Assembly: GCA_039819165.1 (NCBI GenBank) | Contig: JBCBSM010000001.1 | Coordinates: 310,001 to 374,000, forward strand | DNA from: Planctomycetota bacterium | GTDB taxonomy: Bacteria > Planctomycetota > Phycisphaerae > Phycisphaerales > UBA1924 | Length of the DNA: 64,000 nucleotides | Reading direction: 5' to 3' | Shown here: in pieces, positions 18,244 through 31,798 of the stretch | Numbering within the stretch: the first letter of the stretch is position 1 | How the letters are laid out: the number at the start of each line of letters is the position of its first letter | Made by a program: the position numbers and the translations under genes | The notes under the pieces: generated by a model | What the model was told of the DNA's origin: nothing | Seen by the model: the letters and a program-made list of their open reading frames with translations, nothing else | Databases searched by the model: none

Positions 18244-19059
18244 TTAGCAGCCGATCTGGAAGGCGTTCTGGAATGCGAGAAAATCGAAGATCGTGAACTC
18301 GCCATCGCCGTCGAAGTCGGCCATGGGGTCTCGGGCGTCGAAGTCGTTGAGGAACTCGAGGAAGTCGAAGATCGTCAGGAGGCCGTCGCCGCCATAATCG
18401 GCCGGGCAACGGGTCGAGGTCCGCGTGAGCACGAAGCGGCCGAGTGCCGGCGTGCCGGTGAACGGGAATTCGCTGGCAATCAAGCGGATCGGCTCGGGCG
18501 GCACCGTGTCCATGTTGGGGCTGGTGTAGCTGGGGCCCGAATCGGTGCCGGAGTCGTAGGGCCGCAGGTCGAACTCGAGCGTCTCGACCCAGGTCCCGAG
18601 CTGACGCAGCGAGAGGCTCCGGGTGCCCACGAACCAGTCGGGGCTCGGGGCGATCATCGAGACGACGGTGACCAGCGGAAAGTCCTGCCGGACCTCGAAC
18701 TCGACCGTCACCGAGCCGGGCGAGAGCGGGATGCCGCCACCGGAGATCACCGACAGCGCGTCGCCCGCGTCGATCAGGTCGTTGACCTCGCCGATCAGCA
18801 GCGTCTTGCTGCCGGTCTCGGCCATCGACTCCATGCCGTCGCTCGCCAGCGCGCCGGCTTCCCACAGCACGCCGTCCTCGTTATGGACCGCGCCGACGAG
18901 ACCCGAGAAGTGCGGCCGGGGCGGGAAGGCCGTCGGGTGCGTGGCGGCCGACCAGTCGGCCTGGAACTCGAGGCGGTAGGTCGCCGAGCCGAGCCACGGC
19001 TGGGCCGAGGCGGCGGCGGCGAGTCCGAGGATGGCGGCGGTTGCGGTCGCGGCGTGCAT
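18244..19059 (-). CDS. Spondin-domain protein with GC-type dockerin
   Basis: A 271-residue exported protein: signal peptide (about 1-18), then a spondin N-like domain (residues 24-210) with the Y-R-L-x-F-x-A-x-W-S-x-A-T-H-P start, PHFSGLVGAVHN, and PDWFVGTRSLSL. The tail has two EF-like loops. The first reads DYGGDGLLT, with Gly where the third loop position is normally Asp, so calcium binding there may be weakened; the second, DFDGDGEFT, is intact. It ends QIGC. GGAGA lies upstream of the ATG at 19059. It is a clear paralogue of the next gene upstream (19334-20143), likely from tandem duplication. Spondin domains in bacteria are of unknown role, perhaps adhesion. Confidence 0.85.
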   Translation of the reverse strand: MHAATATAAILGLAAAASAQPWLGSATYRLEFQADWSAATHPTAFPPRPHFSGLVGAVHNEDGVLWEAGALASDGMESMAETGSKTLLIGEVNDLIDAGDALSVISGGGIPLSPGSVTVEFEVRQDFPLVTVVSMIAPSPDWFVGTRSLSLRQLGTWVETLEFDLRPYDSGTDSGPSYTSPNMDTVPPEPIRLIASEFPFTGTPALGRFVLTRTSTRCPADYGGDGLLTIFDFLEFLNDFDARDPMADFDGDGEFTIFDFLAFQNAFQIGC

Positions 19060-19333
19060 GGATGGAGTCTCCGGTGGTGCTGCGTGCGGTCGATCACGAG
19101 TCCGGCCCGCATCTCTGCCTCGGAGGACGGGGTTCGCCGCGAACGCGATTGGTTCGCGCGATTGGCCGGGCCTTGCACCAAGCCTACCGCACGAGCCGGA
19201 GAAATCCATGGCCAGAATTGCGTAAACTCATACCTCTGAAAGGTTTAGAGTTTGTTCAAAGATCCATCCAAAGACTGAACTTGGCTGATGCCTCGCGGGC
19301 TAGCTTCGCCCGCGGCTTCGTGTCTCGCCGCGT

Positions 19334-20143
19334 TCAGCAGCCGGCGTCGAAGGCGTTCTGGAACGCCAGGAAATCGAACAGCGTGAGCGCCCCGTCGCCG
19401 TCGAAGTCGGCGGCGATATCGCCCGCATCGAAGGCGTTCTGGAACATCAGGAAGTCGAAGATGGTCAGCGTGCCGTCGCTATCCATGTCGGCGGCACACT
19501 CCACGGAGAGCAGCTCGAGCGTGTAGGTGCCGATCCTCGGCGCATCGGTGAACGGGAACTCGCCCACGAGACGGCGGATGGGCTCGGGCGGGACCGTGTC
19601 GACATCCCTCGAGCGGTAGCTCGCACCCGAGTCGGTGCCCGAGTCGTACGGCCACAGATCGAAGATGATCTCGTCGATCCACCCGGCGCCGTCACGGAGC
19701 GACAGGCTCTGGGTCCCCACGAACCAGTCGGGACTCGGGGCGATCATGGTCACCACGCTGAGCAGCGGGAAGTCGCTGGAGGTCTCGAAGGTGACCGACA
19801 CGCTCCCGGGCGAGAGGGGAATGCCGCCCCCGGAGATCAGCGTCTGGGCCGTGCCATCGGCGATGTAGCCGTTGACCTCGGTCACCAGCCGAACCTTGCT
19901 GCCGGTCTCGGCCATGAGTTCGATGCCGGGGGTGGCGAGCTGGCCGGCCTCCCAGAGCTGCACGCCATCGTTGTGGGTGCCCCCGATCAGCCCGGAGAAG
20001 TGGGGGTCGGGGGGGAAGGCGCTGGGGTGGGTCGCACTTGACCACTCGGCGTCGAAGGTCAGGCGGTAGGTGGCGGTGCTGCCCTGGGCCGACGCGGTGG
20101 CGGCGGCGGCGAGGAGCGACAAGCAGGCGGCGGTGCGGAGCAT
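19334..20143 (-). CDS. Spondin-domain protein with GC-type dockerin (paralogue)
   Basis: A 269-residue exported protein, sister of the 18244-19059 product: signal peptide (1-19), spondin N-like domain starting TYRLTFDAEWSSATHPSAFP, conserved ISGGGIPLSPGSV and APSPDWFVGTQSLSLR, then two full EF-like loops (DMDSDGTLT and DFDGDGALT) and the end DAGC. GAAGGAAGA precedes the ATG at 20143. The gap to its paralogue (274 bases) contains an AT-rich imperfect hairpin at 19224-19253 (AAACTC/GAGTTT outer stem) that may be a terminator. A GAATCCTGCA element 190 bases upstream recurs before two other dockerin genes. Confidence 0.86.
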   Translation of the reverse strand: MLRTAACLSLLAAAATASAQGSTATYRLTFDAEWSSATHPSAFPPDPHFSGLIGGTHNDGVQLWEAGQLATPGIELMAETGSKVRLVTEVNGYIADGTAQTLISGGGIPLSPGSVSVTFETSSDFPLLSVVTMIAPSPDWFVGTQSLSLRDGAGWIDEIIFDLWPYDSGTDSGASYRSRDVDTVPPEPIRRLVGEFPFTDAPRIGTYTLELLSVECAADMDSDGTLTIFDFLMFQNAFDAGDIAADFDGDGALTLFDFLAFQNAFDAGC

Positions 20144-20406
20144 CTGTCTTCCTTCTGGCTGGACCATGCCTGGCTGAGCCAGGCCTAGCTGAATCATGCG
20201 TGGCTGAATCCTGGGTGGCTTGGCCGATTCGGTCGGTGCCACGCCCTCCATCGTGGTTACGGACTTGGTCGGGTCTCCCCTCGGGGTAGCCCTCCATTGT
20301 GTCGGGGGCGTCCAGCATTCCTTGCATCCGAGAATCCTGCAAACCTCCAGCAAGGGACCGCGGCGCCCCATGCTGAAGACGCCCGGCCGGGCGGCTAGCG
20401 TTTCGC

Positions 20407-21861
20407 GTGACGCTCATACAAGACCAGATCCAGACCCGGAACCTCATCGATGGCCAGTGGACGGATGCCGACGGCGGTGCGACGTTCGCGGTCACCAATC
20501 CCGCCACCGATTCCCACATCGCCGACGTACCCGATGGTGGCGAGGATGATGCCCGCCGAGCGATCGATGCGGCCCACGGCGCGTTCGAACCCTGGGCGGG
20601 CCTGGCCGCGTCCGATCGGTGCGAGAAGATCGCTCGGCTGGCCGAGTTGATGCACCGGGATGCCGACCGCCTCGCGACGCTGATGACCACCGAGCAGGGC
20701 AAGCCGCTGGGCGAGTCCCGCGGCGAGATCGCCTACGCCGCCAGCTTCCTCGAGTGGGCCGCGGGCGAGGGCCGCCGGCTCTACGGCGACATCGTGCCCG
20801 CGTCCGCTGCCGACAAGCGGATCCTCGTGCTCAGGCAGCCCGTGGGCGTGGCGGCGATCATCACGCCCTGGAACTTCCCCGCCGCGATGATCACCCGCAA
20901 GCTGGGCCCCGCGCTCGCCTGCGGCTGCACCACGGTCATCAAGCCCGCCGAGGACACCCCGCTGAGCGCCCTGGCCATCGGCGAGCTGGCGCTCGAGGCC
21001 GGCATCCCGCCCGGCGTGGTCAACATCCTGACGGGCGACCCCAGGAAGATCGGCAAGGCGATCTTCTCCGACAGCCGCGTTCGCAAGCTGAGCTTCACGG
21101 GCTCCACCGAGGTCGGCCGCACGCTGATGGAGCAGTCGGCCGAGAACCTGCTGCGGCTGTCGATGGAGCTGGGTGGGCACGCGCCCTTCCTGGTGTTCGA
21201 TGACGCCGACGTGGACAAGGCCGTCAGTGCCGCGGTGGCCTGCAAGTTCCGCAACGCGGGGCAGACCTGCATCTGCGCTAACCGCTTCTACGTGCAGAAC
21301 GGCGTCTACGACGCCTTTATGAAGGGCTTCGCCGAGGCCATCGAGTCCCTCGAGGTCGGCGAGGGTCTGCAGGACGGCGTCAACATCGGCCCGCTCATCA
21401 ACGACGGCGCCGTCGAGAAGGTGGAGACGCACGTGGCCGACGCCAACGACAAGGGTGCCACCGTCCGCGTGGGGGGGCACAAGGTCCGCGTCGACGGCCT
21501 CGCCGATCGCTTCTATGCGCCCACCCTGCTGGACGGCATGACCAGCGAGATGCTGTGCGCCACCGAGGAGACCTTCGGCCCCGTTGCGCCGGTAGCCCGC
21601 TTCGCCAAGGAGGACGAGGCCATCGCCGCCGCCAACGACTCGCCCTTCGGCCTGGCGGCCTACTTCTTCACGGGCAACGCCTCGCGGCTTATCCGCGTGG
21701 CCGAGGCGCTCGAGTACGGCATCGTGGGGGCCAACGATGCCGCACCCTCGACCGCGCAGGCGCCCTTCGGCGGCGTCAAGCACTCGGGCTTCGGCCGCGA
21801 GGGCGGCAGGTACGTGATGGACGAATACACGAACACGAAGTACGTGAGCTGGGGACTCTGA
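20407..21861 (+). CDS. gabD: NAD(P)-dependent succinate-semialdehyde dehydrogenase
   Basis: A 484-residue aldehyde dehydrogenase that oxidises succinate semialdehyde to succinate. VITPWNFPAAMITRK (as IITPWNFPAAMITRK) marks the cofactor site, FTGSTEVGR the Rossmann loop, Glu254 (SMELGGHAPF) the general base and Cys288 (AGQTCICANR) the nucleophile; the CIC pattern and the C-terminal GGVKHSGFGREGG are typical of the GabD group. The GTG start is just inside the divergent gap from the spondin gene. A class III aminotransferase gene lies 0.8 kb downstream, so the pair could run the GABA shunt: GABA to succinate semialdehyde to succinate. Confidence 0.93.
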   Translation: MTLIQDQIQTRNLIDGQWTDADGGATFAVTNPATDSHIADVPDGGEDDARRAIDAAHGAFEPWAGLAASDRCEKIARLAELMHRDADRLATLMTTEQGKPLGESRGEIAYAASFLEWAAGEGRRLYGDIVPASAADKRILVLRQPVGVAAIITPWNFPAAMITRKLGPALACGCTTVIKPAEDTPLSALAIGELALEAGIPPGVVNILTGDPRKIGKAIFSDSRVRKLSFTGSTEVGRTLMEQSAENLLRLSMELGGHAPFLVFDDADVDKAVSAAVACKFRNAGQTCICANRFYVQNGVYDAFMKGFAEAIESLEVGEGLQDGVNIGPLINDGAVEKVETHVADANDKGATVRVGGHKVRVDGLADRFYAPTLLDGMTSEMLCATEETFGPVAPVARFAKEDEAIAAANDSPFGLAAYFFTGNASRLIRVAEALEYGIVGANDAAPSTAQAPFGGVKHSGFGREGGRYVMDEYTNTKYVSWGL

Positions 21862-22704: not shown

Positions 22705-24054
22705 ATGCCCACCAACTCGGAGTCGCTCGTCGCCCGCCGCCAGGCCGTGGTGTGTCCCGGCGTGGGCATGCTCAGCCCGATGACCGCCGCCTCGGCCGCC
22801 GGGGCGATCATCACCGACGCCGACGGCCGCGAGTTCATCGACCTGGCCAGCGGCATCGGCGTGATGAACGTCGGCCATAGCGACCCGGCCGTCGTCGAGG
22901 CCATCCGGGCCCAGGCCGGCGCGCTGCAGCACGCCTGCATCCACGTGGCGACCTACGAGCCCTACGTCGCCCTCTGCGAGAAGCTCGTCGAGCTGTTCCC
23001 GCACCACGAGCAGCCGGGCGACTCGACCAAGGCCATGCTCGTCAACACCGGGGCCGAGGCGGTCGAGAACTCGATCAAGATCGCGCGGCAGGCGACCGGC
23101 CGGCAGGCGGTCATCTGCTACACCGGCGCCTTCCACGGGCGGACGCTGCTGGCCGCCACGCTGACGAGCAAGGTCGGCCTCAAGCAGCACTGCGGGCCGT
23201 ACGCGCCGGAGGTCTACCGGCTGCCCTTCCCCGCGCCGCTGCCGGGCGAGGATCTCTTGGAGGATGCCGTCGCCGAGCGGGAGCTGCGGCGGCTGCGGCG
23301 GTCCTTCCAGGACACGATCCACGCCGACCAAGTGGCGGCGATCATCATCGAGGTGGTGCAGGGCGAGGGCGGCTTCCGCGTCGCGCCGGCGGCCTACCTG
23401 CACGAGCTGCGGCAGATCTGCGACGAGCACGGCATCGTGCTGATCCTCGACGAGGTGCAGGCGGGCTTCTGCCGCACCGGGAGGTGGGCGGGCTACGACC
23501 ACTTCGGCGTCAAGCCCGACCTCTCGCCCTGGGCCAAGGCCATGGGCGGAGGCATGCCCATCTCGTGCGTCATCGGCAAGGCCAGCGTGATGGACCGCGT
23601 CGCTCCGGGCACGCTGGGGGGCACCTACGGCGGCAACCCGGTCGCCTGCGCCGCGGCGCTCGCGACGATCCGCCGGATGGAGGAGCTGGATCTCAACGCC
23701 CGCTCGACGGCCATCGGCCACCAGATCCGCGACGCCTTCGAGGGCCTCCGCGACCGATTCGACGAGGTGACCGACGTGCGGGGCCTGGGCTCGATGATGG
23801 CCGTCGAGTTCCATGAGGGCGGCGATCCGCACCGGCCGGCCGGGCGGCTGGTCAAGTCGATCATCGACCGTTGCCGGGCCGAGGGGGTGCTGGTCATCGC
23901 CGCCGGCGTGGACGGCAACTGCATCCGCGTGCTCGCGCCGCTGGTGATCACCGACGAGCAGCTCGGCCGGGCGCTGGGCGTGCTGGTCGGAGCGGCGGAG
24001 TCGTGCATCGCCGCATCCCGCGAGTCGGGCCGGCCGGCGGCCGCAAGCGCTTAA
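22705..24054 (+). CDS. gabT: Class III aminotransferase, 4-aminobutyrate transaminase type
   Basis: A 449-residue PLP-dependent omega-aminotransferase. It shows NTGAEAVENSIKIAR, FHGRTLL, ILDEVQAGFCRTGR (PLP-ring Asp) and the Schiff-base Lys278 in PWAKAMGGGMPIS. The family matches GABA or related omega-amino donors; substrate is not fixed by sequence, and putrescine-type diamines or diaminobutyrate are possible. GGAGGA precedes the ATG. It opens a five-gene run with gabD upstream. Given the amino-acid decarboxylase three genes on, it may deaminate an amine made within the cluster. Confidence 0.88.
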   Translation: MPTNSESLVARRQAVVCPGVGMLSPMTAASAAGAIITDADGREFIDLASGIGVMNVGHSDPAVVEAIRAQAGALQHACIHVATYEPYVALCEKLVELFPHHEQPGDSTKAMLVNTGAEAVENSIKIARQATGRQAVICYTGAFHGRTLLAATLTSKVGLKQHCGPYAPEVYRLPFPAPLPGEDLLEDAVAERELRRLRRSFQDTIHADQVAAIIIEVVQGEGGFRVAPAAYLHELRQICDEHGIVLILDEVQAGFCRTGRWAGYDHFGVKPDLSPWAKAMGGGMPISCVIGKASVMDRVAPGTLGGTYGGNPVACAAALATIRRMEELDLNARSTAIGHQIRDAFEGLRDRFDEVTDVRGLGSMMAVEFHEGGDPHRPAGRLVKSIIDRCRAEGVLVIAAGVDGNCIRVLAPLVITDEQLGRALGVLVGAAESCIAASRESGRPAAASA

Positions 24055-24126
24055 GATGCCCGGGCTCGCCGGCCGATGCCGGTAGCCGTGCTTCTTGGGC
24101 CTCGGAATCTCCCTCGGAAGGAACGC

Positions 24127-25203
24127 ATGCGTCCGTTCGCCATCGCCGGGTTGCAGCTGGAAGTCTCGGGCCGTCGCTCGAACCTCGCGCACATCACCGA
24201 TCGCATCGAGATGGTCATGCACCTGTACCCGTGGGTGCAGATGGTGCTGGTCAGCGAGCTGGCGACCTTCGGCGGCTGGACCGGCCACGCCATGCCGCTA
24301 CCCAGCGAGGTCGAGGATGCGTACCGCCGGCTCGCCGCTCGGCACGAGGTCTGGCTCGTGCCCGGCTCGCTCTACGAGCAGACCGACGCGGGCATCTACA
24401 ACACGGCGCCGGTGATCAACCCCGCCGGCGAGGTCGTGGCACGGTACCGCAAGATGTTCCCCTTCCTGCCCTACGAGGCGGGCGTGCAATCGGGCACCGA
24501 GTTCTGCGTGTTCGACGTGCCCGAGATCGGCCGCTTCGGCCTGAGCATCTGCTACGACATGTGGTTCCCCGAGACCAGCCGCACGCTGGCGGCGATGGGG
24601 GCCGAGGTCATCCTGCACCCCACGCTGACGCCGACGATCGACCGCGACGTGGAGCTGTCGATCGTGCGGGCGACGGCGGCCATGAACCAGTGCTTCGTCG
24701 TGGACATCAACGGCGTGGGCGACGGCGGCAACGGCCGATCGATCCTGTGCGCGCCCTCGGGCGACGTGCTCTACCAGGCCGGCAGCCACGAGGAACTGCT
24801 GCCCATCGAGATCGACCTGGATCGCGTGCGTCGCAGCCGCGAGGTGGGGCTCAAGGGGCTGGGCCAGCCGCTCAAGAGCTTCCGCGATCGGCATGTGGAG
24901 TTCGGCGTCTATCAGAAGGACTGGCGGGACGGCGGCTACCTCGACACGCTCGGCTCGCTGGAGATGATGGCCCGCGGCAGCCGCGCGGGCATCGCCTTCG
25001 GCCAGAACCATCCGCACGCCGACGCCAGCGTACCTCCGCCCGCGGAGGATCCCGGCGTCCAGGCCATGGGCGACACCACCCGCCCGCCCGGCACGGGCAA
25101 GGAGGCCACCGCGCTCGAGCCGCCGGTCCACGCCGACGCGGCTCCGTCCCACGGCGTCGGCCCCGCCGCGACCCCGACACCCGGCGGCGCGGTGACGCCG
25201 TGA
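24127..25203 (+). CDS. Carbon-nitrogen hydrolase (nitrilase superfamily)
   Basis: A 358-residue nitrilase-fold amidase. The catalytic triad is clear: Glu44 (LVSELATFGG), Lys109 (YRKMFPF) and Cys142 (SICYDMWFPE). The hydrolase domain ends near residue 280; the last 70 residues are Pro, Ala and Gly-rich and look disordered. GGAAGGAACGC places the start at 24127. Relatives cleave N-carbamoylputrescine, omega-amides and other linear amides. Its stop overlaps the start of the decarboxylase (GTGA), implying linked expression. In this setting I infer it releases an amine or acid from an amide intermediate; the substrate is unknown. Confidence 0.88.
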   Translation: MRPFAIAGLQLEVSGRRSNLAHITDRIEMVMHLYPWVQMVLVSELATFGGWTGHAMPLPSEVEDAYRRLAARHEVWLVPGSLYEQTDAGIYNTAPVINPAGEVVARYRKMFPFLPYEAGVQSGTEFCVFDVPEIGRFGLSICYDMWFPETSRTLAAMGAEVILHPTLTPTIDRDVELSIVRATAAMNQCFVVDINGVGDGGNGRSILCAPSGDVLYQAGSHEELLPIEIDLDRVRRSREVGLKGLGQPLKSFRDRHVEFGVYQKDWRDGGYLDTLGSLEMMARGSRAGIAFGQNHPHADASVPPPAEDPGVQAMGDTTRPPGTGKEATALEPPVHADAAPSHGVGPAATPTPGGAVTP

Positions 25204-27965
25204 GCATCGCTACGGGCCGCCAGTACAGCGCCTTCCAGCTGCGGAGCGACACCTGGAATGAGCTGCAGGTCGCCTGCACGCGACTGCTCGATGGCACGCT
25301 CGATCCCGAGCACGAGCAGGTCGTCGCCACCGTCGCCCAGCGGCTGGACGTGCTGGCGCATCTGGAGCCCTACTGGGCCTTCCCGGGCCCGTCGTACATG
25401 GCGCGGCTGTCGCAGCTGTTCGCCACCCGCTCCTTCGGGGAGCTGGCGAGCACGGTCGCCTCGCTCAGCCGACAACTCATCGGCGACACCTACCGGGCCC
25501 GGGGCGGATCAACGCAGGATGATCCCTCCGAGGCGTTCGGCCGCTACGCCCACGCCGCCCACGCGTCTCGCTGGTCGTCGCCGGACGGCCGGCACGTGGC
25601 CCGCGACTCCCGCGGCGGGCCGGCGGACATGCTGTACTTCGAGGTGCTCATCGTCGACGGCATCGATGCCTACGACCATGACGAGCTCCGCGACGGCCTG
25701 CTGGCCTGCCGGCGGGAGAGCGACCCCTTCGTCTACGACGTCGTCACCGTGCCGAGCTTCGAGGACGCGGTGATCGCCGCCCTCTTCAACCCGACCATCC
25801 AGGTCGCGTTCCTTCGGTACAACTACGCGATGCAGACCCAGAACCACCACCCCGCGCTCAAACGCTACCTGGACCGCTTGGCGGCCGAGGGCGTACCGGT
25901 GTGCCACGGCGTGCAGCGGAGCGTGCAGCTGGCCAGGGTGCTCAAGACGCTCCGCCCCGAGCTCGACCTGTACCTCGTCACCGACACGCCGCTGGAGGAC
26001 GTCGCCGGCAGCCTCGGGGCCAACTTCCGGCGGACGTTCTACCGCCTGGAGAACTACATGGAGCAGCACCTCAGCGTGCTGCGGGGCGTGCAGGAGCGTT
26101 ACGGCACGCCGTTCTTCGATGCGCTGCGGAAGTACAGCGCCAAGCCCACCGGCGTGTTCCACGCGCTGCCCATCGCACGCGGCAAGTCGATGGCCAATTC
26201 GCACTGGGCCAAGGACTTCTACGAGTTCTACGGGCAGAACCTGTTCCTGGCCGAGACCAGCGCGACCAGCGGCGGGCTCGATTCGCTGCTGCAGCCCCGC
26301 GGGCCCATCAAGCGTGCCCAGGACATGGCGGCGCGGGCCTTTGGCGCCCGGCAGACCTTCTTCGTGACCAACGGCACGTCGACGGCCAACAAGATCGTGC
26401 TGCAGGCGCTGATCAATCCCGGCGACATCGTGCTGGTCGACCGCGATTGCCACAAGAGCCACCACTACGCCTTCGTGCTCAACGGCGCGATGCCCGTCTA
26501 CCTCGATTCCTATCCGCTGCAGCGGTACAGCATGTACGGTGCGGTGCCGCTCGAGGAGATCGAGCAGCGGCTGATCCAGCTGCGGGATGCGGGCAAGCTC
26601 GATCGCGTCAAGATGCTGCTGCTCACCAATTGCACCTTCGACGGGCTGACTTACGACCCCGAGCGAGTGATGCGCCGGGTGCTGGCGATCAAGCCCGACA
26701 TGGTGTTCCTGTGGGACGAGGCCTGGTTCGCCTACGCCCGGTTCAGCGACACCCTCCGTGGCCGCACCGCGATGGCCGGCGCCCGCACGCTGCGGCGGGA
26801 ATTCCGCAGCGACGAGTACGCCGAGGCCTACCGCCGTGCGAGCGCATCGGGCGATCCCATCGACGCAAACGGTGAGCCGATGCCCGACCCGGATCGCGTT
26901 CGGGTGCGGGTCTACGCCACCCAGTCGACGCACAAGACGCTGACCTCGCTGCGGCAGGGCTCGATGATCCACGTCTACGACGAGGACTTCGAGCAGCGTG
27001 TCGGCGAGTCGTTCCACGAGGCGTTCATGACGCACACGTCGACGTCGCCTAACTACCAGATCATCGCCTCACTCGACGTCGGCCGCCGCCAGGTCGAGAT
27101 GGAGGGCTACGAGCTCGTCGAGCGGACGGTCGACCTGGCCATGACGCTCCGCAAGCGCGTCAGCGAGCATCCCGACATCCAGCGGTTCTTCCGCGTGCTG
27201 CGGCCGGCCGACATGATCCCCGCCGACCGCCGGCCCTCGGGGCTGGAGTTCTACTTCGACCCCGAGCAGGGGTGGGGGCGGATGGACCGGGCGTGGCGGA
27301 TGGACGAGTTCACGCTCGATCCGACGCGGGTGACCCTCGATGTATCGGCGACCGGGGTCGACGGGGACACCATGCGGCACCTGCTCATGGATCGCTTCGA
27401 CATCCAGATCAACAAGACCTCCCGCAACACCGCGCTGTTCATGCCCAACATCGGAACAACGAGGGGCGACATCGCCTATCTCGTCGAGACGCTGGCGGCG
27501 CTCTCGCGGGAGTTCGAGGATCGGCTGTCGACCGAGAGCGCCGCGGGCCTGAGCATCCACAGTGCGCGGGTCGATTCGCTGTGCCAGGGGCCCGCGCTGC
27601 CCAACTTCAGCCGGTTCCACGAGGCCTTCGGCTCGCCCGATTCGCCCGAGGGCGACCTGCGGCGGGCATACTTCCTGGCCAGCGATGGCGCCAACATCCA
27701 GTGGACGCCGCTCGACCGGGCGCTCTGGAGCCGCATCGGCTCGGGTGAGGAGCTGGTCTCGGCAGCATTCGTCACGCCCTATCCGCCGGGCTTTCCGATC
27801 CTGGTCCCCGGGCAGGTGCTCAGCGCGGAGATCGTGGAGTACCTGCTGGCGCTGGACGTCAAGGAGATCCACGGCTACCACCCAACGTACGGCCTGCGCG
27901 TATTCGTGGAGGATGCGCTGGACCGCGCCCGCGAGCGGGAGGCCCCGATCGCGCAGGGTGCCTAG
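25200..27965 (+). CDS. Orn/Lys/Arg decarboxylase family PLP enzyme, very large
   Basis: A 921-residue fold-I PLP enzyme. Residues about 140-260 (MLYFEVLIVDGID... FEDAVIAALFNP) resemble the response-regulator-like wing domain of inducible lysine, ornithine and arginine decarboxylases. The core has the PLP phosphate loop GTSTANKIV (about 391), DRDCHKSHHYA (about 417), Asp506 in FLWDEAWFAYARF and Schiff-base Lys579 in QSTHKTLTSLRQGS. The C-terminal domain ends with PYPPGFPILVPGQ and GYHPTYGLRVF. It starts with GTG overlapping the previous stop. About 120 N-terminal residues have no counterpart that I recognise. The likely reaction is decarboxylation of Arg, Lys or Orn to agmatine, cadaverine or putrescine; which one is not evident. 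It is longer than the usual 710-760 residues. Confidence 0.88.
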   Translation: MSIATGRQYSAFQLRSDTWNELQVACTRLLDGTLDPEHEQVVATVAQRLDVLAHLEPYWAFPGPSYMARLSQLFATRSFGELASTVASLSRQLIGDTYRARGGSTQDDPSEAFGRYAHAAHASRWSSPDGRHVARDSRGGPADMLYFEVLIVDGIDAYDHDELRDGLLACRRESDPFVYDVVTVPSFEDAVIAALFNPTIQVAFLRYNYAMQTQNHHPALKRYLDRLAAEGVPVCHGVQRSVQLARVLKTLRPELDLYLVTDTPLEDVAGSLGANFRRTFYRLENYMEQHLSVLRGVQERYGTPFFDALRKYSAKPTGVFHALPIARGKSMANSHWAKDFYEFYGQNLFLAETSATSGGLDSLLQPRGPIKRAQDMAARAFGARQTFFVTNGTSTANKIVLQALINPGDIVLVDRDCHKSHHYAFVLNGAMPVYLDSYPLQRYSMYGAVPLEEIEQRLIQLRDAGKLDRVKMLLLTNCTFDGLTYDPERVMRRVLAIKPDMVFLWDEAWFAYARFSDTLRGRTAMAGARTLRREFRSDEYAEAYRRASASGDPIDANGEPMPDPDRVRVRVYATQSTHKTLTSLRQGSMIHVYDEDFEQRVGESFHEAFMTHTSTSPNYQIIASLDVGRRQVEMEGYELVERTVDLAMTLRKRVSEHPDIQRFFRVLRPADMIPADRRPSGLEFYFDPEQGWGRMDRAWRMDEFTLDPTRVTLDVSATGVDGDTMRHLLMDRFDIQINKTSRNTALFMPNIGTTRGDIAYLVETLAALSREFEDRLSTESAAGLSIHSARVDSLCQGPALPNFSRFHEAFGSPDSPEGDLRRAYFLASDGANIQWTPLDRALWSRIGSGEELVSAAFVTPYPPGFPILVPGQVLSAEIVEYLLALDVKEIHGYHPTYGLRVFVEDALDRAREREAPIAQGA

Positions 27966-27983
27966 CCGAAAGGACCGTCCGCC

Positions 27984-29549
27984 ATGAGCCAGACGAGCAC
28001 GATCGACGCACCGACCGACGCCGCGTCGACCGAGGAGCGCCACGCCGCGGTGGCCAAGGCCAAGCCGCTGCGGTCCAACCGGGCGACGCGGCGGAAGCCC
28101 AAGACGCTGCGTGGCATCTCGGAGATCCGCCGCTTCTTCCACCGCAACGACGAGCCGATCTACTTCATCAGCGCGACCAACTTCAACCTGCTCGGCATGG
28201 ACGAATGGATCCGCAACTTTACCTTCATCTGCTACATCGATTGCTTCGACGGGCAGCATCCCAACGTCTTCGTGCCGCCCGAGCGGCCGCACGAACCCTT
28301 CGAGTCCATCGAGGACATCAACAACTACCTGCTGCGGCACCCGGCCGTCAAGAAACTGATCCGTGATCGAGGTAGCGAATCCAAGAGCAACGGCAAGGCC
28401 GTGTTCCTGATGTTCGACGAGACGACCGAGAAGCTCTGCGCAGAGCTCGGTGTCGAGGTGTGCTTCCCGTCCGCATCGCTGCGGAACGCCGTCGACGACA
28501 AGATGGAGACCACCCGCATCGGCAACAAGGCCCGCGTGTACAGCGTGCCCAACAAGCTCGCGAAGGTCCGCAGCTACGAGCATCTTCGCAAGGCTGCCGG
28601 GCGGCTGGGCGACGATCTCGTGATCCAGACCGCCTACGGCGACTCGGGGCACACGACCTTCTTCGTGTCCAGCGAGAAGGACTTCGCGAAGCACGAGGCC
28701 GACATCGTCTCGGCCCCCGAGGTCAAGATCATGAAGCGGATCCGCTGCCGCGGCAGCGCCCTCGAGGCGTGCGTCACACGGCACGGTACCATCGTGGGCC
28801 CGCTGATGACCGAGCTCGTCGGCTTCTCTGAGCTGACGCCCTACAAGGGTGGCTGGTGCGGCAACGAGGTGTTCGCGGATGCCTTTGACCGCCGCATCCG
28901 CCGCAACGCGAGGCGGGCGGCGGCGGCCTTCGGCGACCAGCTCCGCGAGATGGGTTATCGCGGCTACTTCGAGCTGGACTTCCTGACCGACCTCGACACG
29001 GGCCGCGTCTACCTGGGCGAGTGCAACCCGCGGATCACAGGCGCCAGCAGCATGACCAACCTGGCGGCCTTTGCGCACGCCGACGCGCCGCTGTTCCTCT
29101 TCCACCTGCTCGAGTGGATGGGCATCGACTACGAGCTGGACGTCGAGGAGCTGAACGAACGCTGGGCCGATCCGGACAACATCGATAGCTGGAGCCAGCT
29201 GGTGCTCAAGAGCACCGACGACACGGTCGACCAGATCACCCAGGCCCCGCCCTCGGGCATCTACGAGCTCGACGGTCGCGGCCAGATGCGGTACGTCCGC
29301 ATGCAGACGCACCGCCGCACTGTGCAGTACGAGAACCGGGCGTTCTACCTGCGGATTGCCGGCGTGGGCGACTACCGCTACGAGGGCGCGGACCTGGGCA
29401 TCCTCGTCAGCCCGGGCCGCTTCATGGACGACGACTTCAAGCTCACCCGCCGCGCCCGCCAGTGGATCGCCGGCCTGCGGGGCATGTACGGCGGCGAGGG
29501 CGTCGCCCCCGCCGAGCAGCCCGAGCCCACGGGCTTCAAGCTCCTGTGA
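27984..29549 (+). CDS. ATP-grasp ligase (biotin-carboxylase-like), substrate unknown
   Basis: A 521-residue ATP-grasp enzyme. The first 45 residues are charged and probably disordered. A pre-ATP-grasp domain follows (FISATNFNLLGMDEWIRN), then a lid region with LVIQTAYGDSGHTTFFV and the metal-binding Glu346/Asn348 in YLGECNPRITGASSM. Such enzymes activate a carboxylate as acyl phosphate and join it to an amine or other nucleophile. No biotin-carrier or carboxyltransferase genes are nearby, so acetyl-CoA-type carboxylation is unlikely despite the family name. AAAGGACC precedes the ATG, 18 bases after the decarboxylase. I infer amide formation on an amine made by the neighbouring decarboxylase. 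Confidence 0.85.
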   Translation: MSQTSTIDAPTDAASTEERHAAVAKAKPLRSNRATRRKPKTLRGISEIRRFFHRNDEPIYFISATNFNLLGMDEWIRNFTFICYIDCFDGQHPNVFVPPERPHEPFESIEDINNYLLRHPAVKKLIRDRGSESKSNGKAVFLMFDETTEKLCAELGVEVCFPSASLRNAVDDKMETTRIGNKARVYSVPNKLAKVRSYEHLRKAAGRLGDDLVIQTAYGDSGHTTFFVSSEKDFAKHEADIVSAPEVKIMKRIRCRGSALEACVTRHGTIVGPLMTELVGFSELTPYKGGWCGNEVFADAFDRRIRRNARRAAAAFGDQLREMGYRGYFELDFLTDLDTGRVYLGECNPRITGASSMTNLAAFAHADAPLFLFHLLEWMGIDYELDVEELNERWADPDNIDSWSQLVLKSTDDTVDQITQAPPSGIYELDGRGQMRYVRMQTHRRTVQYENRAFYLRIAGVGDYRYEGADLGILVSPGRFMDDDFKLTRRARQWIAGLRGMYGGEGVAPAEQPEPTGFKLL

Positions 29550-30538
29550 ACCCGCCGGCCGACACGCGGCCCCGCTTGCTCTTCCGCGCGCTCGATGAGG
29601 CCGAGCACCGCGACGAGGTGCGCGACGTGTTCTATGCGTACTGGCCGTCCTACCGCTCGTGGATCGCTCGCAGCGGCCGCACGCCGTCGGCCCGCCGATC
29701 GCGCGAGGCCTACCTCGGCTGCATGCCCGAGATGGAACCCGTGCTGGAGCACCAGCGCGACGCCTTCGGCACAGAGGCCGAGGTCCTGCGGCTCCTGACG
29801 CTCTATGCGCCGCCGCCGATGGTCCGGGGCTGCTCGCAGGCGGTCTGGATCGGCGATGGGGACGCGGCGCTCGTCCGCAACTACGACCACGCGCCGCAGC
29901 TCTCCGATGGCCTCGTGCTCCGCGCCAACTGGGGCGGCACACGCACGCTCGCCATGACCGATTGCCTCGTGGGCGCCCTCGACGGCATCAACGAGCACGG
30001 CGTGGCGATCGCGCTGGCCTTCGGCGGCCGACCGGCGCACGGCGATGGATTCGCCGCCTCCATGCTCGTGCGTTACGCCCTCCAGGTCGCATCCACAACC
30101 GATGAGGCGGTCGACGCGATGCGGCGGGTGCCGTGTGCGATGACCTATACGTTCCTCATCATCGATGCCCAAGCGCACCACGCGACGGTGTACGCCGCCC
30201 CGGACCGCCTACCGAAGATCGACCACCTGCCCGCCTCGACCAACCACCAGGGCAGGATTGAGTGGCCCCGCTACGCGGCGTTCTCGAAGACGGCCGAGCG
30301 GCTCGCGCACCTGCGGGCGTGCCTGGATGCGAACCCGTCGCTGCACGAGCTGCAGCGGGCCCTGCTCGAGCCGCCGCTGCACCGCACCGGCTACGAACGC
30401 GGCTCGGGCACCCTCTACACGGCGACCTACCGCACCGCCGACCGCTGCCTGGAATTGCACTGGCCCGATGCTCGCATGGCCATCGGCCTCGAGGGCGATA
30501 TGCCCGAGCCGCACCTGGCGGTGTATGACACTTCGTAG
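29546..30538 (+). CDS. C45-type Ntn hydrolase (acyl-CoA:6-APA acyltransferase-like)
   Basis: A 330-residue protein of the C45 (penicillin N-acyltransferase-like) Ntn-hydrolase family. The conserved G-C-(S/T) processing site is RGCSQAVW, with Cys96 as predicted nucleophile after self-cleavage; later motifs ALVRNYDHAP, LDGINEHGVAIAL and MTYTFLIIDA match the family. Members hydrolyse or transfer acyl groups on small amides. The GTG start overlaps the ATP-grasp stop (GTGA), so the ligase and this amidase/acyltransferase are made together, like a protect-and-deprotect pair. Last gene of the run; a convergent tRNA-Gly follows. Confidence 0.87.
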   Translation: MNPPADTRPRLLFRALDEAEHRDEVRDVFYAYWPSYRSWIARSGRTPSARRSREAYLGCMPEMEPVLEHQRDAFGTEAEVLRLLTLYAPPPMVRGCSQAVWIGDGDAALVRNYDHAPQLSDGLVLRANWGGTRTLAMTDCLVGALDGINEHGVAIALAFGGRPAHGDGFAASMLVRYALQVASTTDEAVDAMRRVPCAMTYTFLIIDAQAHHATVYAAPDRLPKIDHLPASTNHQGRIEWPRYAAFSKTAERLAHLRACLDANPSLHELQRALLEPPLHRTGYERGSGTLYTATYRTADRCLELHWPDARMAIGLEGDMPEPHLAVYDTS

Positions 30539-30810: not shown

Positions 30811-31788
30811 CTACTCCGCGGGACCGCGCTGCGCCGCATCGAGGCACAGGATCTCGAAGGCCACGTGGGCCGCCAGCAGCGCCGTGTAGCCACCGGGGTC
30901 GCGCTCGGGCAGGACCTCGACGATGTCGGCCCCGACGATCGATGCCCCCCGCATCCGCCGCAGCAGCGCGAATGCCTCGCGCGGCGTGAGTCCGCCCGGG
31001 CAGGGCGTCCCCGTGCCCGGTGCGTAGGCGGGATCGATGCAATCCACATCGAAGGTGGCGTACGTCGCCGAGCCCGCGGTGCGATCCAGGAAGCCGCGGA
31101 TGGCCGCCTCGCCCTCGCCCGCATCGAGGTCGTCCTGGCTCACGATCGTGATGCCGTGGTCGCGGGCGTAGGCCAGGTCGTCCTTGCTGTTCAGCGGCCC
31201 CTTGATGCCGATCGAGATCATCCGCTTCGGATCGATCAACCCATCCTCGATCGCCCGGACGAACGGCGAGGCGTGCCCCCATCGCTCGCCCCAGACCGCG
31301 TCGACCGTGTCGAGGTGGGTATCGAAGTGGACGGCCGCTAGCGCCTCGCCCCCGCGCCGCTCGAAGGTCGCCCGCATGTTGGCGTAGGCGATGGAGTGAT
31401 CCCCGCCGATGGCCAGCAGCTTCGTATGCGTCGGGTCGGGCAAGGCGCGTGCAAACCCGGCCACGGCATCGAGGGTGCCCCTGCAGTCGTAGGGCTCGAC
31501 GGGCGCATCGCCGGCGTCCGCGAGCGACAGCACCTCCGGCACGTCCACGTCGTGCGGCATCGAGTAGTGCTTGAGGTACTGCGACTCCGCCCGGATCGCC
31601 CGAGGGCCGAAGCGAGTGCCCGGCCGGTAGGTCACGCCCGAGTCGTACGGCACGCCGTAGACCAGCCAGTCGATCGGCCGAGCCTCGGACTCGACGTCCT
31701 CGAGCCTGGGATACCGACCGAACGTGCAGATGCCGCCGAAGCGGGGTTGCAGCCGCGGGTTGGGGAGCTGGGTGCGTCGCTCGTTCAT
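30811..31788 (-). CDS. speB: Agmatinase-type ureohydrolase
   Basis: A 325-residue binuclear-manganese hydrolase of the arginase/agmatinase family, which removes urea from agmatine or a related guanidino compound. Metal-ligand motifs are present: GGDHS, FDTHLD (where most members read DAH) and FDVDCIDPAYAPGTGTP. The N-terminal GVPYDSGVTYRPGTRFGPRAIR fits agmatinases and guanidinobutyrases better than arginases. The ATG at 31788 has GAGGGAGG upstream; a TTG one codon earlier is possible. It follows the fumarylacetoacetase gene by 10 bases. It could link to the decarboxylase cluster converging from the other side if that enzyme makes agmatine; this is inference. Confidence 0.87.
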   Translation of the reverse strand: MNERRTQLPNPRLQPRFGGICTFGRYPRLEDVESEARPIDWLVYGVPYDSGVTYRPGTRFGPRAIRAESQYLKHYSMPHDVDVPEVLSLADAGDAPVEPYDCRGTLDAVAGFARALPDPTHTKLLAIGGDHSIAYANMRATFERRGGEALAAVHFDTHLDTVDAVWGERWGHASPFVRAIEDGLIDPKRMISIGIKGPLNSKDDLAYARDHGITIVSQDDLDAGEGEAAIRGFLDRTAGSATYATFDVDCIDPAYAPGTGTPCPGGLTPREAFALLRRMRGASIVGADIVEVLPERDPGGYTALLAAHVAFEILCLDAAQRGPAE

Positions 31789-31798
31789 CAAGCCTCCC

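Follow-up and report, generated by a model that had tools for sequence, protein, structure and literature searches.

Gene organisation of the locus

The window, which is the whole 64,000-nucleotide stretch of planctomycete DNA analysed here (positions 310,001 to 374,000 of contig JBCBSM010000001.1, from a genome of 3.14 Mb), contains five plus-strand genes between 22705 and 30538 that encode a class-III aminotransferase, a nitrilase-fold amidase (NIT), a giant decarboxylase (DC) dependent on pyridoxal 5'-phosphate (PLP), an ATP-grasp protein (GRASP) and an N-terminal nucleophile (Ntn) hydrolase of the C45 family (C45). This set was found to be conserved and linked in bacteria of several phyla, and a possible role in the degradation of arginine and of the amines derived from it is proposed. 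The five genes, followed by two genes flanking them, are listed below with their lengths in amino acids (aa) and their best family scores.

22705–24054, plus strand: class-III aminotransferase, nearest to γ-aminobutyrate (GABA) transaminase; 449 aa; PF00202 382.8 bits, over the Pfam cut-off
24127–25203, plus strand: nitrilase-fold amidase (NIT); 358 aa; PF00795 111.7 bits, over the Pfam cut-off
25200–27965, plus strand: giant fold-type-I PLP decarboxylase (DC), Rv2531c-like; 921 aa, GTG start; PF01276 278.1 bits, over the Pfam cut-off
27984–29549, plus strand: ATP-grasp protein (GRASP) of family PRK06524; 521 aa; NF005096 748.6 bits, cut-off 684
29546–30538, plus strand: C45-family autoproteolytic Ntn amidase/acyltransferase; 330 aa, GTG start; PF03417 over the Pfam cut-off, NF040521 140.4 bits, cut-off 85
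20407–21861, plus strand: aldehyde dehydrogenase (ALDH), nearest to the succinate-semialdehyde dehydrogenase (SSADH) family; PF00171 560.3 bits
30811–31791, minus strand: agmatinase-family ureohydrolase, a convergent neighbour; TIGR01230 184.8 bits, cut-off 174.3

The original prediction, an earlier reading of these letters alone, had described five plus-strand genes with two GTGA junctions and one 18-base gap. A check of the open reading frames and coordinates agreed with it throughout, the overlaps being at 25200–25203 (NIT/DC) and 29546–29549 (GRASP/C45) and the gap between DC and GRASP at 27966–27983. The catalytic residues that it had named were present as well, namely the Glu-Lys-Cys triad of NIT as Glu44, Lys109 and Cys142 counted from 24127, the metal site Glu346/Asn348 of GRASP and Cys96 of C45. 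The start of NIT is better set at the ATG at 24127, where its relatives begin, than at the ATG at 24076. One promoter and one terminator were predicted in the set, against 0.7 and 2.5, respectively, expected from shuffles, so that these predictions are uninformative. Opposite the DC and GRASP genes, the minus strand carries a 957-aa open frame (27069–29942); long antisense frames recur in the relatives, and this one is most likely a shadow of the high GC content.

Conservation and linkage of the gene set

The conservation of the set was followed by scanning GTDB contigs with the GRASP protein, which gave 565 stretches encoding a relative. The best 80, with 57–83% identity in the best segment, were kept; this sample over-represents the nearest relatives, and 37 of the 80 loci have a flank of less than 8.5 kb. 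A gene was counted as present when it was found within 10 kb by phmmer score thresholds chosen for this analysis. Among these best 80 of 565 loci, DC was found in 74, C45 in 70, NIT in 61, the class-III aminotransferase in 44 and ALDH in 41. In the 43 loci having at least 8.5 kb on both sides (full-flank loci), the counts were 42 for DC, 39 for NIT, 38 for C45, 33 for the aminotransferase and 27 for ALDH. The original prediction had asked for a search for the five families together across genomes, and they were indeed found together in 26 of the 43 full-flank loci and in several phyla, with ALDH also present in 20 of those 26. NIT was missing in four and C45 in five of the 43, and both were missing in none. 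The ALDH gene directly preceded the aminotransferase gene in 8 of the 13 loci L003–L015, and in one further locus (L152) ALDH, GABA-transaminase-like and agmatinase-family genes adjoin NIT, DC, GRASP and C45. The ALDH gene at 20407–21861 thus belongs to the set, beyond the five genes originally noted.

The nearest loci to that of the window are from Phycisphaerae, and the other hosts include further Planctomycetota, Alpha- and Gammaproteobacteria, Bacteroidetes, Gemmatimonadota, Myxococcales, Trueperaceae and others, the labels being those deposited, many of them for metagenome-assembled genomes (MAGs). Acanthopleuribacter, Myxococcales and Trueperaceae are taken here to belong to Acidobacteriota, Myxococcota and Deinococcota, respectively. 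Genomes were also drawn independently. Of 294 genomes of Planctomycetota, 15 encoded a member of the GRASP family, that of the window being one of them; the corresponding numbers were 11 of 385 for the class that includes Marivibrio, 10 of 369 for the class that includes Thiothrix, 6 of 149 for the genus of Acinetobacter piscicola and 8 of 379 for the order to which a Burkholderiaceae MAG belongs.

The association of GRASP with DC was also seen at the level of whole genomes. A giant DC (>500 bits) was encoded in 37 of 45 genomes with GRASP (26 of 30 plus 11 of 15), a number that includes the window's own genome and two genomes with a divergent or fragmentary copy, both without a giant DC (G647 and G504). 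It was encoded in 1 of 78 genomes without GRASP (0 of 40 plus 1 of 38), these being genomes with no match at E 1e-60 that were the first non-matching rows of the draws, with several small genomes passed over and without pairing to the positives. Five GRASP genomes that had been used as search centres were tested separately and three of them had a giant DC (12 of 14 in that whole test, the two exceptions being Thiothrix and Thiofilum). DC was close to GRASP on one contig in 35 of the 37 genomes having both, and in the other two (G717 and G1093) GRASP was at a contig end and DC on another contig. A chance neighbourhood is ruled out by the locus counts and by this difference between genomes with and without GRASP. 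The sole giant DC among the 78 GRASP-negative genomes lies at G872:C22:340801–343488 (823 bits).

When pairwise protein distances were compared over 65 loci and the window, DC and GRASP were correlated with rho 0.79 (permuted maximum 0.17), DC and C45 with 0.59 and GRASP and C45 with 0.56 (permuted maxima ≤0.20). The correlations of NIT were weaker, at 0.53 with DC, 0.42 with GRASP and 0.31 with C45 (permuted maxima ≤0.20). These values fit joint inheritance of the genes, a comparison made without an unlinked control gene, so that shared descent of the hosts could explain part of them. In four divergent loci (L157 and L162–L164), DC, GRASP and C45 were kept with no NIT nearby.

Some other arrangements of these genes were also observed. 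A tetratricopeptide repeat protein is encoded directly before DC in two divergent DC-GRASP-C45 sets (L157:1–651 and L163:5664–6305). One genome (G1213) has two GRASP/C45 sets (L152 and L153), of which the first contains two close C45 genes and the second is divergent and has its own NIT. A divergent GRASP relative at L131:8841–10448 (487 bits) adjoins a class-III aminotransferase, and no DC, C45 or NIT match was found in the 17.5 kb around it.

GRASP as a probable amide ligase

GRASP has no Pfam match and exceeds the cut-off of the NCBIfam model NF005096 (PRK06524), which carries the name 'biotin carboxylase'. Its structural model (predicted local distance difference test score, pLDDT, 86.3) matched biotin carboxylase, PurK and PylC at Z 21–23 with no clear favourite, the comparison with PylC (4ffl) giving Z 22.6 and a root-mean-square deviation (rmsd) of 4.4 over 323 residues at 9% identity. 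Glu346 and Asn348 of the metal site were invariant in 60 sequences, with Arg350 in the same motif. By this predicted fold and the Glu/Asn pair, GRASP is a member of the ATP-grasp superfamily.

In biotin carboxylases, a Glu after the E-x-N-x-R motif activates bicarbonate. The NPRIQVEH sequence of pyruvate carboxylase aligns to NPRITGAS in GRASP, where Thr-Gly-Ala replaces Gln-Val-Glu. Position 354 was Ala in 59 of the 60 sequences, Val in one and Glu in none, and both Gly353 and Ser355 were invariant. A ligase-like motif with Gly for Val was found in 129 of 132 GRASP sequences, the three outside this pattern being L162–L164. GRASP as a true biotin carboxylase was considered and is disfavoured by the absence of the Gln-Val-Glu site, without which it does not class with that enzyme. 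The original prediction had named the identification of GRASP as a carboxylase with a biotin carrier partner as the result that would speak against it; with the catalytic Glu missing, such an outcome is unlikely. Because the bicarbonate-activating Glu is missing despite the biotin-carboxylase fold, GRASP is probably an amide ligase rather than a carboxylase. PylC, an ATP-grasp amide ligase with the same overall fold, is probably the better functional model, even though biotin carboxylases and PurK match this fold equally well.

A different use of the same fold would be a biotin-free, PurK-like carboxylation of urea, guanidine or an amine, the product of which would be hydrolysed by the amidases as in urea amidolyase. 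The presence of biotin carboxylase and PurK among the nearest folds and the NCBIfam name of the family are in keeping with such a reaction, and since PurK is also biotin-free, the missing Glu argues less against it. It is nevertheless very improbable in our judgement, as Gln-Val-Glu of the bicarbonate site is replaced by Thr-Gly-Ala with no Glu354 in any of the 60 sequences, and as A. piscicola has the set yet has no ureohydrolase match.

The giant decarboxylase and a likely link to arginine

The PLP lysine of DC (Lys579) as well as His418, Asp506 and His578 were invariant in 29 sequences, and His418, Asp506 and Lys579 align with those of biodegradative arginine decarboxylase. As judged from the domain score and this PLP site, DC is a member of the Orn/Lys/Arg decarboxylases (PF01276). 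It matched 9n0o/9n0n over the full length (E 5e-232), and 9n0o, the Rv2531c protein of Mycobacterium tuberculosis, is its closest solved relative. The family models for lysine decarboxylase (219.3 and 190.3 bits), arginine decarboxylase (179.5) and ornithine decarboxylase (170.2) gave no clear favourite.

An indication of the substrate came from loci in which DC is replaced. In Thiothrix (L027) and Thiofilum (L034), for which no giant DC was found genome-wide, the gene order is NIT-GRASP-C45-amino-acid permease-agmatinase family-5-guanidino-2-oxopentanoate decarboxylase-ALDH-D-amino-acid dehydrogenase-racemase. The 5-guanidino-2-oxopentanoate decarboxylase, tested in L027, scores 754.9 bits against a cut-off of 500. 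Similar sets are annotated on plasmids of Shinella and Roseateles and one was found on a Sinorhizobium plasmid (L092), the plasmid stretch alone being covered. In the 2-ketoarginine route, arginine is converted through D-arginine, 2-ketoarginine and 4-guanidinobutyrate to GABA, and the route is complete without an ATP-grasp protein, C45 or NIT. Its enzymes (racemase, D-amino-acid dehydrogenase, AruI, ALDH and guanidinobutyrase) are found here with NIT-GRASP-C45 in the place of the giant DC, and GRASP, C45 and NIT are unexplained additions there. Because DC and the 2-ketoarginine route stand in for each other, arginine is the likeliest substrate of DC. DC would thus most likely act on a basic amino acid, and the gene context alone points to the conversion of arginine to agmatine as the likeliest reaction.

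The use of lysine or ornithine instead of arginine, with DC making cadaverine or putrescine and the set ending in glutarate or succinate, was weighed against the same loci. The lack of a clear favourite among the decarboxylase models agrees with it, as does the racemase of Thiothrix (L027), which is nearest to ornithine racemase and below its cut-off (389.7 bits against 480). In the set that replaces DC, however, the 2-ketoarginine decarboxylase exceeds its cut-off and a gene of the agmatinase family is present, and we consider lysine or ornithine an unlikely substrate.

The two amidases

C45 has the Gly-Cys nucleophile and the NF040521 score of a C45 proenzyme, and its nucleophile Cys96 was invariant in 42 sequences. 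The model of C45 (pLDDT 92.8) was closest to isopenicillin N acyltransferase (2x1c) with Z 29.3 and rmsd 3.3 over 302 residues, the next enzyme having Z 23.5. Isopenicillin N acyltransferase cleaves an aminoadipoyl amide.

The triad of NIT was invariant in 39 aligned sequences, which places NIT in the nitrilase superfamily. Among named families, its best matches were to AguB, an archaeal nitrilase, formamidase and aliphatic amidase, with scores that in every case fell far short of the cut-off. The assignment of NIT as N-carbamoylputrescine amidase AguB (TIGR03381) was rejected at 73.1 bits against a cut-off of 410.25. In the window, NIT has a Pro/Ala-rich C-terminal tail (25015–25203), its length of 358 aa comparing with a median of 312 in 83 relatives.

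A proposed pathway and its alternatives

We tentatively favour the set as a catabolic module for arginine and derived amines, which would end in GABA and succinate by way of an amide intermediate made with ATP. DC would decarboxylate a basic amino acid, the likeliest being arginine with agmatine as product, and a ureohydrolase or an agmatine deiminase, encoded nearby or elsewhere, would convert agmatine to putrescine. GRASP, as an ADP-forming, biotin-free amide ligase, would join the amine to a carboxylic acid, for which glutamate is the obvious candidate. The class-III aminotransferase and ALDH would convert the free amine end to an acid, and the amide would be cut by C45, or by NIT in some lineages, releasing GABA, which GABA transaminase and SSADH would convert to succinate. 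Loci of the 2-ketoarginine type would use this lower branch for amines in parallel. The analysis establishes the gene set and how far it is conserved, the residues of the active sites, the predicted folds, the lack of the carboxylase residue in GRASP and, in some loci, the replacement of DC by the 2-ketoarginine route. The substrates throughout, the acyl donor, the sequence of the GRASP, oxidation and amide-cleavage steps and the part played by the second amidase are inferred. For the step from agmatine to putrescine, the ureohydrolase family was found in 31 of 33 genomes, the agmatine deiminase family in 12 of 33 and one or the other in all 33, which is a weak test as both families are broad. 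The two genomes without a ureohydrolase match both have an agmatine-deiminase-family gene. Also in favour of the scheme are the linkage of the genes, the replacement loci that point to arginine, the ligase-like residues of GRASP and the likeness of C45 to isopenicillin N acyltransferase. At the GABA end, genes beside the set in A. piscicola (L073) exceed the curated cut-offs for GABA transaminase (573.2 bits against 506.65) and SSADH (677.2 against 646.35).

Several observations weigh against the favoured pathway. The scheme has work for one amidase, and there are two. In loci of the 2-ketoarginine type, GABA is formed with no putrescine on the way, which leaves GRASP with no obvious place in them unless there is a parallel amine branch. 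For the closest solved relative of DC, Rv2531c, no activity is known (PMC12910592). The window aminotransferase is below the cut-off for GABA transaminase, its best NCBIfam match (TIGR00700, 459.4 bits against 506.65), and the window ALDH is narrowly below that for SSADH (TIGR01780, 637.7 against 646.35). Transporters stand beside the set in a minority of the 80 loci (permease-like in five, dipeptide-type ABC parts in one and a TRAP-type family in five). A ureohydrolase is beside the set in 4 of the 80 loci, including two 2-ketoarginine-type loci, and no ureohydrolase match was found in the 19.5 kb around the cluster of a genome of the same genus (G002, locus L140). On these two counts, the agmatinase-family gene at 30811–31791, which is separated from the five-gene set by tRNA-Gly and tRNA-Glu genes, was rejected as a fixed part of the set; it is a possible partner, and its position is not conserved. 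Finally, six loci have NIT-GRASP-C45 without a giant DC (L122 and L123 of Acinetobacter and L158–L161 of the Burkholderiaceae order), and a giant DC was absent genome-wide in their hosts. The genomes of L158–L161 hold shorter DC relatives elsewhere (open frames of 664–680 and 768 residues, ≤200 bits).

Because NIT-less and DC-less loci both exist, GRASP with at least one amidase is the constant element. The original prediction had joined the five genes in one pathway. Their linkage was borne out, and the five as a functional unit were not, for the aminotransferase and NIT are optional, ALDH belongs with them and six loci do without the giant DC. The order of events that it had put forward, with decarboxylation first, then joining to an acid, transamination and release, is a possible one. 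The same pattern can be read as the making of conjugates, in which GRASP and a hydrolase would build and break a stable amide (a glutamyl-, β-alanyl- or GABA-polyamine or -agmatine) for protection, storage or as a signal, on the model of glutathionylspermidine synthetase/amidase, and the genes for GABA metabolism would form a separate neighbouring pathway. Such a cycle requires a pair of ligase and amidase, and GRASP is accompanied by C45, NIT or both in all 43 full-flank loci, while the aminotransferase is missing in 10 and ALDH in 16 of them; the six loci lacking DC also agree with it. The presence of the aminotransferase and ALDH in most full-flank loci (33 and 27 of 43) looks catabolic, however, and so do the genes leading from arginine to GABA in L027, L034 and the loci on three plasmids and the importers in a minority of loci. 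On balance, we find conjugate-making rather unlikely.

The common point of the two upper routes suggests yet another order of events, in which GRASP would activate 4-guanidinobutyrate or GABA as an amide, the later enzymes would act on this amide, and NIT or C45 would free the acid last. Guanidinobutyrate or GABA, and not putrescine, is what the 2-ketoarginine and DC routes have in common. Neither GABA nor guanidinobutyrate is known to need masking at its carboxylate, and we hold this order of events to be quite unlikely.

Genes neighbouring the set

A cupin regulator gene was found in 6 of the 80 loci and in L085, the one in L085 being XRE-cupin by Pfam. More importers and regulators stand beside the set on plasmids. 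On three rhizobial plasmids (L087, L088 and L089), the genes that come after DC, GRASP and C45 encode a dipeptide-type ABC transporter, an amidase, an RpiR regulator and a serine hydrolase, and in L087 the set adjoins nifHDKEN. A common family was seen near the set in L039, L051, L062, L068 and L075, its member in L062 being assigned by Pfam to the TAXI-type TRAP transporters; L051 also has a gene for a universal stress protein. In the window, two similar adjoining proteins with C-terminal repeats of the form DGxLTIFDFLxFQNxFD are encoded on the minus strand at 18244–19209 and 19334–20371.

Comparison with known systems

In the γ-glutamylated putrescine (Puu) pathway of Escherichia coli, an amine is joined to an acid with ATP and oxidised, and the amide is then hydrolysed to give GABA. 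The favoured catabolic pathway would follow the same logic, a likeness drawn by analogy, and a cupin regulator stands beside the set in some loci, the XRE-cupin pairing seen in L085 being that of PuuR. The enzymes differ at each stage. The Puu ligase is glutamine-synthetase-like whereas that of the set is an ATP-grasp protein; the Puu hydrolase is a class I glutamine amidotransferase whereas that of the set is a C45 Ntn hydrolase (or a nitrilase); and the set has a decarboxylase and no amine oxidase. PuuA- and PuuD-type families were not among the seven cluster and flanking proteins by Pfam, the rest of the genome not having been searched for them. Glutathionylspermidine synthetase/amidase, carnosine synthase and Ebony/Tan are further cases in which an amide ligase and an amidase act as a pair on an amine, Tan being of the C45 type. 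Their ligases and hydrolases belong to families other than those of the set or are fusions. In searches of the open-access literature (subscription papers and preprints being outside this scope), no description of the PRK06524 family or of the gene set was found among the matches listed.

With somewhat more reserve than the catabolic pathway itself, we suggest that the set might represent an undescribed degradation of basic amino acids. In it, the biotin-free GRASP would mask an arginine-derived amine as an amide and C45 would unmask it. The pathway, spread over at least Planctomycetota, Pseudomonadota, Bacteroidota, Gemmatimonadota, Acidobacteriota, Myxococcota and Deinococcota, would then be a second case of mask-oxidise-unmask logic that evolved independently of Puu. 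The set is widespread, tightly linked and directly testable. A family annotated as 'biotin carboxylase' lacks the carboxylase residue, and this PRK06524 family is tied to a DC family in which the member studied structurally, Rv2531c, is of no known activity; for both, a testable reaction follows from the gene set. If true, the proposal would add a widespread route for the recovery of nitrogen from arginine or polyamines, found also on a rhizobial plasmid where it adjoins nitrogen-fixation genes.

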